Below, piece by piece: positions 32,060 through 36,974 of a stretch of 41,912 bases of DNA (the first letter of the stretch is position 1; every line of letters begins with the position of its first letter). The DNA is taken from the NCBI GenBank assembly GCA_034190545.1, contig JAXIOF010000025.1:1-41912 (forward strand), given 5' to 3'. The notes below the pieces were generated by a model, which worked only from the letters and a program-made list of their open reading frames with translations, had not been told where the DNA came from and did no database searches. This stretch comes from Candidatus Afararchaeum irisae (lineage in GTDB: Archaea; Halobacteriota; Halobacteria; Halobacteriales; Afararchaeaceae). Position numbers and translations under genes: made by a program.

Positions 32060-34567
32060 GTGTCCCGGGGTAGATTCGACTTCGGGATTGATTACCAGCG
32101 TGTCATTGACCTCATCGACGACCTGATAGTCAATAGGACGAAGTACGTCTTAGCCGCCTTCTTAGTCGTTACAGCTGTCTTCAGCCTCGGGCTCGGAGCT
32201 ACAAGTACTGAGACCGGAACCGACCAGTTCACTCAGGATATGCCTGCACAGGAGGCACTTGACCAGGTCGAGGAGAAGTTCGAGTACTCGTTTGAGGGCG
32301 ACGACGGAAGCACTCAGCTAATACAGTCGGGAGAAAATGTCGTCTCTAAGCAAGGGATTCTGAGAATGCTGAGAGCACAGAAGAGAATGTCGGAGAGGGA
32401 GTCCCTGAGGGTCGAGTCGGCGAACTCCGCCGCGAGGGTAGTCGCGACGACGCTCGATCCCTCGGCTTCGACACTCGAAGAGCAGATAGATGCGGTCGAG
32501 TCGGCGACACCATCTGAGGTTAGGTCGGCTGTGAGAGACTCGGCTGACAACATACGTTTCACGTCTCTTCTCTCGAAGGACTTCAACTCCGAGTCGGCGT
32601 CCGCCTCGGCGGCACTCGGTATAGTCACTCATAGGATACCCTCCGATGTCTCCGGCGGCAGTGGGGGTGGTGGAGGAGGCGGAAGTTCGCCGATGACCGA
32701 CATACAGCTCAGGTCACAGGACGTCGTCAACTCAGTCGGGGGTAACATACGTGTCTTCGGAAGCGGAATCATAAACGACGAGTTCGCGAACGTCATCACC
32801 GACTCGCTTATCATAGTCGTCCCTGCGGCGTCGGTTCTGATACTCGTCTTCCTCGTCGTCGCCTACCGCGATCCATTCGACCTCTTCCTTGGAATTGTCT
32901 CTCTCGGGATGGCTATAGTCTGGACATTCGGCTACATGGGACTCGCCGGAATTCCGTTCTCACAGATGCTGATAGCCGTGCCGCCTCTTCTCCTCGCAGT
33001 CGGAATCGACTTCGGCATACACGCGGTCAACAGGTACAGGGAAGAGAGGGTAGCCGGAAACGGAGTCGACGAATCGATGAGGACTGCGACCGACCAGCTT
33101 CTCGTCGCTTTCTTCATAGTTGCGGGCACTACAGTTCTCGGCTTCTGGTCGAACACTACAAGCGCGCTGGGTCCTATACGTGACTTCGGACGTGTCGCAG
33201 CCGTCGGTATCATATTCACGACACTCATATTTGGTATCTTCCTTCCAGCGGCGAAGCTCTACATCGACAGGTTCAGAGAACGGCGTTCTCTCCCAGAGTT
33301 CGGGTCACAGCCTCTCGGTTCCGAGGACTCAGTTCTCGGAAAGATATTACCCATAGGCGCGCGCGTCTCACGTCCGTCTCCCGAACTCTTCCTCGCTCTG
33401 ATACTCGTCCTCACCGCGGGAACCGCCTACTACGGCACGGGTGTTGACACCTCGTTCTCGCGTGACGACTTCCTGCCACCCGAGGATGTCTCGCCCCTTG
33501 TGAGGAATCTACCTGAGCCCTTCGCTCCAAGCGAGTACACAGTCACAGAGACCACCAACTACTTAGAGGAGAAGTTCAAGTCGAACGATAACGCTCAGGT
33601 CACAGTCTATGTCGAGGGACATCTTGAAGACGACTCTGCGCTCGAGAACGTCGTGAGGGCGAGCCAGAATCCGCCGGAAACCTTCTTGAGCCAGGATCGC
33701 CGGGCTAGAGGCGAGAGCATCGTGACCGTCATACGTCAGTACGCGCGCGAGTCGGAGAGCTTCGGGAGGCTCGTCGCGAGGAACGATCAGAACTCGAACG
33801 GAGTCCCCGACGACAACTTGGACGAGATATACGACGCCTTACTCACGTCGCCGTACCGTGACCGCGCCCTCGACTACATCACAGAAGACAGAAGATCGAT
33901 GCGTGTCGTCTACTCCGTCGAGGGAGACGCCTCCGACGCCGAGGTCACCGAGGACGCAAGATCTGTCGCCGATAACTACAGGTTCGACGCCACAGCCACA
34001 GGACAGACCGTAGTTTTCGAGGCTGTCTCTGATGTCATATTCGAGTCGGCTCTCCGAAGTCTCGCGCTCGCGCTCGGTGCTACTGCTGTCTTCCTCGTGA
34101 TCGTCTACTCCGTGATAGAGGGAAGACCGTCACTCGGAATCGCTAACCTCGTCCCTGTCGTCGTGACCCTCGCGCTCATCGCGGCGTCGATGCGTTACCT
34201 CGGTGTCTCGTTCAACGCGATGACTGCGACTATACTCTCAATTACGATCGGCTTAGGAGTCGACTACTCGGTTCATACGACACACAGGTTCGTCGACGAG
34301 TACGACGAGAGCCACGACACCTACGCCGCTCTCTTCAGAACACTCAGAGGGACGGGCGGTGCTCTCACGGGAAGTATGCTCACGACGACAACGGGAATCG
34401 GTGTCCTCGTACTCGCTATAACACCGATACTCGGACAGTTCGGTCTGATGACGGGTCTGAGCGTCTTCTACTCGTACCTCACTTCGGTGATCGTCCTACC
34501 GCCGACACTCGTCCTCTGGACGCGTTACGAGAGCTTTGCTCTCGTTGGCTCATCAGACGAAGTCTGA
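32060..34567 (+). CDS. MMPL/RND-superfamily permease
   Basis: The 835-residue protein has the two-half RND layout: TM1 at about 30-48, a periplasm-like domain to about 240, TM cluster 245-400 (sterol-sensing-like), a second outer domain 430-640, and a second TM cluster 660-825. A Gly/Ser linker GGSGGGGGGGSS sits near residue 198. The signature LLLAVGIDFGIHAVNRYREER and the later ITIGLGVDYSVHTTHRF are the proton-relay Asp helices of the MMPL family. It starts with GTG at 32060. The cargo is unknown; lipids or hopanoids are typical for MMPL. The last 14 codons and stop lie inside the hairpin array at 34523-34908. Confidence 0.9.
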   Translation: MSRGRFDFGIDYQRVIDLIDDLIVNRTKYVLAAFLVVTAVFSLGLGATSTETGTDQFTQDMPAQEALDQVEEKFEYSFEGDDGSTQLIQSGENVVSKQGILRMLRAQKRMSERESLRVESANSAARVVATTLDPSASTLEEQIDAVESATPSEVRSAVRDSADNIRFTSLLSKDFNSESASASAALGIVTHRIPSDVSGGSGGGGGGGSSPMTDIQLRSQDVVNSVGGNIRVFGSGIINDEFANVITDSLIIVVPAASVLILVFLVVAYRDPFDLFLGIVSLGMAIVWTFGYMGLAGIPFSQMLIAVPPLLLAVGIDFGIHAVNRYREERVAGNGVDESMRTATDQLLVAFFIVAGTTVLGFWSNTTSALGPIRDFGRVAAVGIIFTTLIFGIFLPAAKLYIDRFRERRSLPEFGSQPLGSEDSVLGKILPIGARVSRPSPELFLALILVLTAGTAYYGTGVDTSFSRDDFLPPEDVSPLVRNLPEPFAPSEYTVTETTNYLEEKFKSNDNAQVTVYVEGHLEDDSALENVVRASQNPPETFLSQDRRARGESIVTVIRQYARESESFGRLVARNDQNSNGVPDDNLDEIYDALLTSPYRDRALDYITEDRRSMRVVYSVEGDASDAEVTEDARSVADNYRFDATATGQTVVFEAVSDVIFESALRSLALALGATAVFLVIVYSVIEGRPSLGIANLVPVVVTLALIAASMRYLGVSFNAMTATILSITIGLGVDYSVHTTHRFVDEYDESHDTYAALFRTLRGTGGALTGSMLTTTTGIGVLVLAITPILGQFGLMTGLSVFYSYLTSVIVLPPTLVLWTRYESFALVGSSDEV

Positions 34568-34908
34568 TGAACGTCTGTAAATCTTTGATTTACAGGGCAT
34601 GACGAGACGCTTCGCGTCTCGTTGCAACCGAAAACGCGTAGCGTTTTCGCGGGTATGCCAATCTTTGATTGGCTACAACACAAATCAGAGATTTGTGGAA
34701 ACTCGTGAATCTTAGATTCACGAACTTCCCCAGAACGCCTTGCGTTCTGGTGTGCGAACGAATCGCTCTGCGATTCGTCAACGTTACGAGAGCTTTGCTC
34801 TCGTTGGCTCGGAAATCGAAGATTTCCGAACGTCCCGAGAACTCTTTGAGTTCTCGTGTGCACGTCAATCTTTGATTGACGAACGTCTGTAAATCTTTGA
34901 TTTACAGG
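34523..34908. repeat. Array of 15 short triloop hairpins with period about 26 bp
   Basis: Fifteen perfect inverted repeats follow one another. Loop centres are at 34536, 34560, 34585, 34612, 34639, 34665, 34688, 34713, 34740, 34768, 34795, 34819, 34846, 34872 and 34897 (intervals 23-28, mean 25.8). Each stem is 7-9 bp, each loop is exactly 3 nt (TTT seven times; also GAA, TTC, GTA, AGA, TTA, CTT, TCT), and the pair closing the loop is always C-G. Spacers are 4-7 nt. The 5' arms differ: ACGAGAGC, TCATCAGAC, CTGTAAATC, ACGAGACGC, CGAAAACGC, GCCAATC, CACAAATC, TCGTGAATC, CCAGAACGC, ACGAATCGC, ACGAGAGC, TCGGAAATC, CGAGAACTC, CGTCAATC, CTGTAAATC. About 258 of 381 bases are paired. Two pairs of units are copies. 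The array fills the gap between convergent genes and ends 2 bases before the rqcH stop. Confidence 0.95.
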
Positions 34909-34910
34909 CT

Positions 34911-36974
34911 CTAGTCCTTCAGACGCGACCCACCCGTCGGGAGGAACTTCTGTATCTCGTCGGGGCTCGCCATCTTCCTGACTAGCTTCTCGTCCCTGCC
35001 GTCGGCTTCCTCTCTGAACCTCCTGTAGATCTTCTTTGCGGTGTCGTTCTGTGAGTACATACCCGGCTCTAACTCGACGTAGTACTTCGATCTGTCCTCT
35101 ATCGCCTCGGGCGGACCTCCTATCACACCCGCCTTCTCGTCGAGACGTAGACCCACGCCGACGCTCAAGGGAACCGTGTAGTACTCTCGGTCTCCCCTCA
35201 CGACGACGCTACCCTTCTCTATGTACTCGCCGCTCTCGGGCGTCTTCGATAGCTGGTCGGGGGTCGCGGAGTAGACGTCCGCGGTTCCGTGTCCCGCGTC
35301 CCAGACAGACGAGTACGACGCCGCGAAGATCGCCGCCTGTCTCTTGCTCGACTCGGGGAAATCGACGTCCTTCTTCGGCTCGTTTGGTTCGGTAGCCTTC
35401 AGGATGGTTATGGGAGCGCCGTGTGCTTGAGTGTGGAAGAAGAGGTCGTTCGACTCGGTGTACTTCTTGTATATCTCCTCGTTCTGGTCGGCGTTTCTGC
35501 CGCCTATCACGAGGAATCCGTCGGAGGTTCTGAACCACCGGAACCTGTCGTACCACATCTCGCCTCGGGGCTTCACGACGGTCTTGTCCTCTTCTTCGTC
35601 TTCCTCAGTCTCCTCTTCCTCCTTCCTCTTCTTTAGGTTCTCAAGCTCCTGTCTGCTGTTTTCGAGAGCCTCTATCGCACCTTCTCTTTTCTCCCTCAGG
35701 TTCTTCGCTTCGTCGTAGAGACGGCTCGCGTTCTCCTCTATCCCCTCGCCTACGTCGATCTCGACAGTTCCCTCCCCGAGGTCTATCTCTACCACTCCGT
35801 CACCTCCTCTCACCGACTCGACTATCTCGGCTGACTCTATACCCTTCTGGCTCGCCTCTTCGAGAGTCTCCTCTATTTCATCCCACGTCTGTCCCGACGA
35901 CCTTGCCTCCCTGACGTTCGACAGAAGCTCGTCGACTACGTCGTACTTCGCGTATAGCCTCTCGGCTTTCTGTTTTAGCTCCTCCTCCTCCTCTTCGAAC
36001 TCCTCGACGGCTTCCTCCTGCTGACGTATTATGTGTCCGTACTTCTGTATCTCCTCTTCGAGCGCCGACTCCGCCTCCTCGCTTTCCTCCTCTTCCTTCT
36101 CCTTCGCCTCGTCGAAGTAGGCGTCGAGGGCGTCGTTGAAGCTCTCGTAGCTTTCCTTGTCGTTGCCGTCGTACTTCTCCAGGCTGAAAGGAACGACGTC
36201 GACGGGATCTCCGTCTCCGTCGTAGACTATCTGGGGGTCGAGGTTCTCGACTCCTACGCTGTCGGTGTCGCCGTCTCTGAGAGGTGAGAAGATCTCCTCC
36301 ATCGCCTCGAAGAGTGCCTCGTAGTCGTCCTCGTCGGCGTCGGAGATCGGTTTCTCCTTCTCGACCTCCGCGCGCGCACAGATCTCCTCAGCGTAGAGAC
36401 CTCCGAAGTTGAGCTGTGACGCGAGCGTCCTCACGAAGTCGGTGTCGGAGTCCTCCATCGTCTCGACGAAGCCGTCGTACGTGAGTTCGAGAGGGTTGAG
36501 ACGTGACTGCGGGAAGACGTACTCCTCTCCCGGTGCGACAGTCCTAGTCTTGAGACGTACTGTCTCGGTCGATCTCAGGACTGTTCCGTCCGACTCGGTG
36601 AATACGAAGTTGCCGTCGCCGAATAGCTCCGCGACCATCGAGTACTCGTCTTCTCGCTCGCCTCTTATCTCGACTATCCTGTCGAAGTCGTACTGTTCGA
36701 CCGACGCGATCTCGCCCCCTGAGAGACGTTTCCTCATCAGCATCGCGAGGTCAGGAGGTCTCTGGGGTGCTTCCTCGGGGCTCTGTGTGAGATGTATTCT
36801 CTTCCAGTCGCCCGTCTCCACGATGAGGTCGAGACGCCCCCTGTCGTAGTCACGTATCTTAACCCGAACCTTTCCGTCTTCGTACTGGTAGAACTTGTCG
36901 AACTTCGCGCCTTCGAGTTCCGAGAGCTCGCTCACGGCTGCGGCTATATCGACACTCGTCATCTCCTTCTTCAT
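34911..36974 (-). CDS. rqcH: Ribosome rescue factor RqcH (NEMF/Rqc2, NFACT family)
   Basis: Binds split 60S-like (50S) subunits with stalled peptidyl-tRNA and adds tails. The 687-residue protein has NFACT-N at about 1-200 with the EQYDFDRIVEI segment (the conserved Asp-Arg pair), a helix-hairpin-helix region, and long coiled coils at about 290-345 and 420-460. The NFACT-R (DUF814) domain lies at about 475-600, with GEMWYDRFRWFRTSDGFLVIGGRNADQNEEIYKKY and DLFFHTQAHGAPITILK. The start ATG at 36974 fits the family. Its stop is two bases from the last hairpin of the array, so its 3' end also faces that element. Confidence 0.95.
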   Translation of the reverse strand: MKKEMTSVDIAAAVSELSELEGAKFDKFYQYEDGKVRVKIRDYDRGRLDLIVETGDWKRIHLTQSPEEAPQRPPDLAMLMRKRLSGGEIASVEQYDFDRIVEIRGEREDEYSMVAELFGDGNFVFTESDGTVLRSTETVRLKTRTVAPGEEYVFPQSRLNPLELTYDGFVETMEDSDTDFVRTLASQLNFGGLYAEEICARAEVEKEKPISDADEDDYEALFEAMEEIFSPLRDGDTDSVGVENLDPQIVYDGDGDPVDVVPFSLEKYDGNDKESYESFNDALDAYFDEAKEKEEEESEEAESALEEEIQKYGHIIRQQEEAVEEFEEEEEELKQKAERLYAKYDVVDELLSNVREARSSGQTWDEIEETLEEASQKGIESAEIVESVRGGDGVVEIDLGEGTVEIDVGEGIEENASRLYDEAKNLREKREGAIEALENSRQELENLKKRKEEEETEEDEEEDKTVVKPRGEMWYDRFRWFRTSDGFLVIGGRNADQNEEIYKKYTESNDLFFHTQAHGAPITILKATEPNEPKKDVDFPESSKRQAAIFAASYSSVWDAGHGTADVYSATPDQLSKTPESGEYIEKGSVVVRGDREYYTVPLSVGVGLRLDEKAGVIGGPPEAIEDRSKYYVELEPGMYSQNDTAKKIYRRFREEADGRDEKLVRKMASPDEIQKFLPTGGSRLKD

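Follow-up and report, generated by a model that had tools for sequence, protein, structure and literature searches.

A hairpin array between convergent genes

We analysed 41,912 nt of Candidatus Afararchaeum irisae, a haloarchaeon represented by a fragmented MAG (assembly GCA_034190545.1; 1.9 Mb, 117 contigs), covering positions 1–41,912 of contig JAXIOF010000025.1 (the window). Where a gene for an MMPL/RND-family membrane protein converges on an NFACT/Rqc2-type gene, a tandem array of inverted repeats occupies the space between them. All fifteen perfect triloop hairpins proposed in the initial annotation are present at 34527–34907, with 7–9-bp stems, 3-nt loops, C–G closing pairs, spacers of 4–7 nt and loops 25.8 bp apart on average, as described. 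The array is far beyond chance: 40 first-order shuffles of the whole window gave a mean of 5.5 triloop stems of at least 7 bp per 41.9 kb and at most two hairpins within any 386 bp. Folded as single-stranded DNA, the array stretch has z = −14. A sequence-based tandem-repeat search was negative; inside the array, 34523–34551 is identical to 34782–34810, and 34565–34596 matches 34877–34908 at 97%. The features are as follows, scored where indicated with a covariance model of two adjacent hairpins built from an alignment of perfect hairpins.

32060–34567, + strand: MMPL/RND-family membrane protein gene (Pfam)
34523–34908, no strand: tandem array of 15 triloop hairpins, very probably mobile double-hairpin units plus a mosaic module
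34523–34571, no strand: double-hairpin unit, TT-ACGAGAGC ttt GCTCTCGT-TGGC-TCATCAGAC gaa GTCTGATGA-ACG; hairpins 34527–34545 and 34550–34570; model match 34525–34571, E 6e-10
34572–34729, no strand: mosaic module of six hairpins, 34575–34595, 34602–34622, 34629–34649, 34657–34673, 34679–34697 and 34703–34723
34730–34784, no strand: double-hairpin unit, CCAGAACGC ctt GCGTTCTGG-TGTGCGA-ACGAATCGC tct GCGATTCGT; hairpins 34730–34750 and 34758–34778, a pair also present at locus L003
34782–34832, no strand: double-hairpin unit, TT-ACGAGAGC ttt GCTCTCGT-TGGC-TCGGAAATC gaa GATTTCCGA-ACG; hairpins 34786–34804 and 34809–34829; model match 34784–34830, E 4e-12
34833–34883, no strand: double-hairpin unit, CGAGAACTC ttt GAGTTCTCG-TGTGCA-CGTCAATC ttt GATTGACG; hairpins 34836–34856 and 34863–34881; model match, E 3e-7
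34884–34908, no strand: last hairpin, CTGTAAATC ttt GATTTACAG, at 34887–34907
34911–36974, − strand: NFACT/Rqc2-type gene (Pfam)

The array reaches into one gene and abuts the other. The final ~12 codons of the MMPL gene (YESFALVGSSDEV, window 34530–34567) are array sequence, and homology to most relatives ends at residue 256–260 of the 268-residue query, which is the array start. The stop codon of the NFACT gene lies 3 bp from the array. Its nearest named matches, in Halorutilus salinus and two MAGs (58–59% identity), have other neighbours and no arrays, and a search for an empty counterpart of the window array found none because gene order is not conserved. The array probably accumulated here since insertions between convergent genes are tolerated, and a secondary effect on both flanking transcripts is possible.

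The repeating unit is a hairpin doublet

Spacers alternate between an internal type (TGGC/GCCA, TGTGCG/CGCACA or CGGGC) and a junction type containing ACG/CGT, and the repeating unit is therefore a pair of hairpins. This double hairpin, 47–57 bp long, is also the unit that moves. It is built from two perfect triloop hairpins with 7–10-bp stems and a C-NNN-G apex, separated by a short internal spacer and bounded by short, partly inverted and often CG-containing termini (TCGT...ACGA or CGTT...AACG). Motifs at the hairpin foot include ACGTT, ACGTCC, TCGTT, TGGTT, TCAAG and others, with CGTC in part of the units only. Cluster sizes across the genome follow the doublet, with 53 even against 8 odd among 61 clusters; 29 clusters have two hairpins, 12 have four and 8 have six. 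Doublets frequently occur singly, and many of these single doublets lie in a larger palindrome's loop. The last hairpin of the window array, a copy of 34575–34595, is apparently half a unit.

Units are dispersed throughout the genome

The same genome holds at least 61 clusters with 246 hairpins, a lower bound counted over the sequence stretches examined, and the window array is the largest of them. The core AATCTTTGATT occurs 25 times, compared with zero for a reversed control, and the covariance model gives 146 strand-wise matches. Within 297 kb sampled, 3-nt-loop stems of 8 bp number 56 against 8.4 expected and those of 9 bp number 65 against 1.4 expected; no excess of this order is seen for loops of 4–8 nt. 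Copies of unit sequences turn up at unlinked places, blocks of 154–158 bp are 93–96% identical between loci, and arrays have blocks in common in both orientations. The mosaic module of the window recurs reversed at two loci (L014, 96%; L011, 93%) and partly at a third (L016), the 34833–34883 unit belongs to a stretch of 90% identity over 112 bp with L002, and the 34782–34832 unit is among the commonest unit types of the genome, with ~50-bp matches at several further positions. A one-off mutational event, which the initial annotation had entertained, is excluded by these clusters together with matches in related genomes. Its exclusion of CRISPR holds, as hairpins mostly differ and spacers are short and recurrent; a phased protein-binding scaffold, also suggested, finds no support given the variable spacing, neighbouring hairpins across the genome lying mostly 22–30 bp apart without strict phase.

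Clusters are strongly associated with transposon genes: 21 of the 61 (34%) lie within 500 bp of a TnpA or TnpB domain, compared with 2.3% expected, and several tnpB genes have identical unit pairs 3′ of them at constant distances. Other clusters sit between tandem, divergent and convergent genes. Eighteen of the 61 are no more than 1 kb from a contig end (~12% expected), where arrays probably break the assembly. Separately, the genome encodes 34 TnpB domains and 3 TnpA domains, one of the latter with a stop.

These positions bear on whether the array is a functional RNA or DNA structure at convergent 3′ ends, acting as a terminator, RNA stabiliser or transcription-collision barrier. Its place between two convergent stop codons and its very stable folding would suit such a role, and bacterial REPs often have side effects of this kind (PMC3733652). 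However, other clusters lie between tandem or divergent genes, inside tnpA and tnpB and in IS ends, and convergent pairs account for just 3 of 42 classified intergenic clusters compared with 71 of 443 gene pairs overall. A promoter and terminator scan was negative, with no GC-rich hairpin followed by a T run, as the initial annotation had anticipated in finding no known terminator type; no Rfam family matches the array at gathering score, and G–U pairs are almost absent. A 3′ RNA common to both transcripts is accordingly not supported, and we consider the wider functional explanation hardly credible.

Units occupy precise filled and empty sites

Comparison of homologous loci reveals that insertion of the units is precise, duplicating nothing or 2–4 bp at most, and that they prefer CG-containing junctions as well as the subterminal palindromes and the genes of IS200/IS605-type elements. 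A PATE left-end palindrome is empty at L002 and filled with 49 bp at L001. The right-end palindrome of an IS605 element, CCTCGGGGTCAAG^CCCCGAGG, has no insert in nine IS copies on plasmids (L090–L094, L096, L106, L107 and L112); many other copies, including those of Natronomonas pharaonis PL131 and Haloferax mediterranei pHME505, carry a double hairpin of 52, 54, 56 or 57 bp at exactly this position. Duplication is 0 bp at this palindrome and at tnpA site B; other filled sites have 2–4 shared bases that are ambiguous as target duplication. One pattern for the right end found no match in the viral contigs searched. The IS605 element is common to A. irisae and plasmids of Halobaculum, Halorubrum, Halobacterium salinarum, Haloferax larsenii, Natronorubrum and Natrinema. 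In a tree of the adjoining tnpA region, the filled A. irisae copy (L008) falls within a clade (100/100 support) that also contains empty copies from Halobaculum and Halorubrum, a position that suggests at least two gains at the right end or repeated exact losses. Some of the contrasts between filled and empty sites could be precise deletions rather than insertions.

Transposon genes themselves bear zero, one or two units in tandem; most insertions keep the frame, and the genes are often still open (tnpB at L041, L042, L045 and L030; tnpA at L004, L008, L093, L094 and L096). In tnpB, L030 and L045 have none, L042 has one unit of 57 bp and L041 has two (114 bp), namely the L042 unit plus a second, all in frame; a 47-bp insert in the tnpB of L036 is out of frame and splits the reading frame. 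Site A of tnpA carries two units in A. irisae, one in Natronorubrum daqingense and none in the others, and at site B a single in-frame 54-bp unit occurs in Haloferax larsenii and Natrinema versiforme, with none in most others. At L093 an in-frame TAG stands at the insert end and no tnpA is annotated. A small DUF2080 'transposase-associated' gene adjoins tnpA in L090–L092, L094, L096 and L107, and stands between tnpA and tnpB where tnpB is annotated.

The initial annotation had listed a hairpin-forming mobile repeat among its options, and the filled and empty sites bear this out. As the unit is a 47–57-bp doublet with such sites, the window array is very likely a set of non-autonomous mobile double hairpins that accumulated in tandem between convergent genes. 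The hairpins might instead be remains of IS605/TnpB elements, intrinsic end hairpins fused after loss of the transposase genes into a PATE conglomerate. The enrichment beside tnpA and tnpB, the fixed spacing 3′ of several tnpB genes and a homologous unit upstream of tnpB in two genera fit that origin, and PATEs that have palindromes near their termini are known from haloarchaea (PMC3119063). Yet the same right-end palindrome stands complete by itself and free of units in named haloarchaea, units also lie within tnpA and tnpB frames and at transposase-free sites, and one genome (G426) has arrays with neither TnpA nor TnpB detected. We regard an origin as IS605 remains as improbable.

Stems change in pairs with almost no intermediates

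Compensatory change in the stems, noted in the initial annotation, is real and strong, and extends to homologous sites. An alignment of 22 doublets has 97% of cells paired and 101 double changes. Among 75 model matches we counted 1141 Watson–Crick cells compared with 7 G–T and 6 C–A, a count that only partly relaxes the bias towards Watson–Crick pairs of a hairpin finder that demanded perfect pairing and a model trained on perfect hairpins. At one homologous right-end insertion point, six pairs are changed on both sides among eight elements, with 14 double changes and 0 one-sided changes, and a homologous left-end unit upstream of tnpB differs between A. irisae and another genus in its outer stem pairs with pairing intact. 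Paired changes with almost no G–T intermediates point to a constraint at the DNA level. An RNA selected on one strand would tolerate G–U, and the near absence of G–U thus fits a folded DNA strand.

The closing pair is C–G in 246 of 254 hairpins in the clusters, and on one strand the loop mostly ends in A (GAA, AGA, AAA, GGA or GTA), resembling the stable DNA triloops of the C-GNA-G kind. Homologous units have GGA and TCC at one loop position. General flipping of loop orientation was retained only in part, as the stems are palindromic and the raw count mixes array orientations.

Perfect Watson–Crick pairing with few intermediates, and loops in both orientations on the same stems, would also follow if fold-back template switching at stalled forks made and perfected inverted repeats with no unit moving; such a process could keep stems perfect. 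It sits poorly with discrete insert sizes (47–57 bp and multiples) that have fixed end motifs and fall at the same point in different species, with the recurrence of unit sequences at unlinked places, with the 93–96% identical blocks shared between loci and with a clear excess confined to loop-3 stems, and we consider it highly improbable.

Related units occur across the order

A structure-model search found matches in 210 of 295 genomes of the order, the figure referring to covariance-model matches at E 0.01 and comprising weaker two-hairpin matches. Typical forms include TCGTT[hairpin]TGATCA[hairpin]GACGA. Elsewhere in the phylum, a small number of genomes from other orders give model matches too. 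One of these, G426, has arrays with as many as 11 triloop hairpins (L069, L080–L083), the longest outside the order among the genomes examined, with junction motifs ACATGT or AAGTCTT/GGGACA. Counts of AATCNNNGATT are high in two further haloarchaeal genomes, G010 (105) and G030 (123); G030 has few model matches despite this number, and its repeats are possibly another family.

Likeness to REPINs and small mobile repeats

Accounts of REP-like hairpin doublets in archaea were absent from the literature searched. The units behave like bacterial REPINs and resemble the 'small mobile repeats' (SMRs) of Haloquadratum. The replicative unit of REPINs is a doublet, which is dispersed and forms clusters when copies insert within or beside older ones (PMC3116915), and REP hairpins also occur inside genes (PMC3733652). 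The archaeal units are likewise short palindromes with many dispersed copies, the doublet being the mobile unit, as seen in 47–57-bp two-hairpin insertions and mostly even cluster sizes. GTAG-family REPs resemble them further in that loops of 2–3 nt and stems of 5–13 bp occur. The archaeal units differ in that they have no GTAG tag at the hairpin foot and CGTC in only part of the copies, their stems vary far more between units, their length is ~50 bp compared with 71–110 bp, and their preferred targets are IS605 elements. RAYT genes are flanked by repeats; A. irisae has three Y1 genes, with units beside them, and some unit-bearing genomes have no Y1 gene. Only TnpA subclass 1.1 has been reported in archaea (PMC6006769). 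The separation from REP/BIME drawn in the initial annotation has to be amended: the units behave as REPIN doublets do, albeit without the GTAG tag or a demonstrated RAYT gene.

SMR-A of Haloquadratum walsbyi is non-coding, with inverted ends and no target duplication, and lies inside near-terminal palindromes of PATE/IS605-type elements, its mobilisation being called enigmatic (PMC3119063). The A. irisae-type units share insertion in such palindromes and, at the right-end palindrome and tnpA site B, the absence of target-site duplication. They differ in length (47–57 bp each compared with ~110 bp), in their make-up of paired triloop hairpins whose stems vary freely, and in forming long arrays; within A. 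irisae they are also far more diverse than SMR-A copies (HqIRS42/43/55), which are commonly more than 95% identical within a type. Palindromes of PATE and IS200/IS605 elements occur in the same genomes and loci and have units within them, but also occur without units, which are guests. Other families share single traits. Rickettsia palindromic elements (RPEs) are inserted in frame in genes and measure ~150 bp, and CGTC-tagged REPs have no dedicated transposase but have 4–5-nt loops and a fixed tag (PMC3733652, PMC10969869). The units insert in tnpA and tnpB much as RPEs do in genes. Double-hairpin elements of fungal mitochondria are mobile pairs of adjacent hairpins that keep structure while sequence varies, in an organelle; we know of no link between them and the archaeal units.

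A candidate mobiliser

Each inserted unit brings the same junction motif at its own edge, beside which the next can insert, so that arrays grow one unit per step, as the 0, 1 and 2 states in tnpB and tnpA show. Perfect pairing survives the drift of the stem sequences, probably because recognition or copying of the element takes place on a folded single strand of DNA. Since insertion is precise, leaves no duplication and depends on hairpins, a Y1 HUH enzyme that transposes single strands is suggested; IS605 insertion of the single-stranded DNA type is precise and without duplication, and RAYTs are thought to act in trans on REPINs. By this analogy the likeliest mobiliser would be an IS200/IS605-type Y1 HUH transposase (TnpA) acting in trans on single-stranded DNA, to which we give somewhat less than an even chance. 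TnpA presence is moderately associated with model matches (odds ratio 2.3, p 0.002, not corrected for relatedness), and 65 of 209 model-positive genomes have no TnpA hit. Nine model matches occur in G103 (99% complete), which gave no TnpA hit; in G426 (84% complete) neither PF01797 nor PF07282 was matched. Whereas a single IS605 TnpA has one fixed tetranucleotide as its target, the units do not.

Rather unlikely, in our judgement, is a broader reading in which the units would form a Halobacteriota-wide class of archaeal mobile elements that are defined by structure, namely a pair of C-NNN-G triloop hairpins whose stems are free to vary, and whose heredity lies in folded shape more than in sequence. 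An enzyme other than IS605 TnpA would move them, because none is detected in G426. They would use lineage-specific junctions (AACGTT, ACATGT and AAGTCTT) and would preferentially invade, and possibly tame, IS605/TnpB elements.

REP-like hairpin doublets, known from bacteria, are common in haloarchaea including cultured species, and exact filled and empty sites and stepwise 0–1–2 growth inside transposase genes are documented here. How transposase-free repeats move, enigmatic for the Haloquadratum SMRs, becomes directly testable in the genetically tractable Haloferax and Halobacterium, and the near absence of G–T intermediates in freely drifting stems offers a clean case of constraint on DNA folding.
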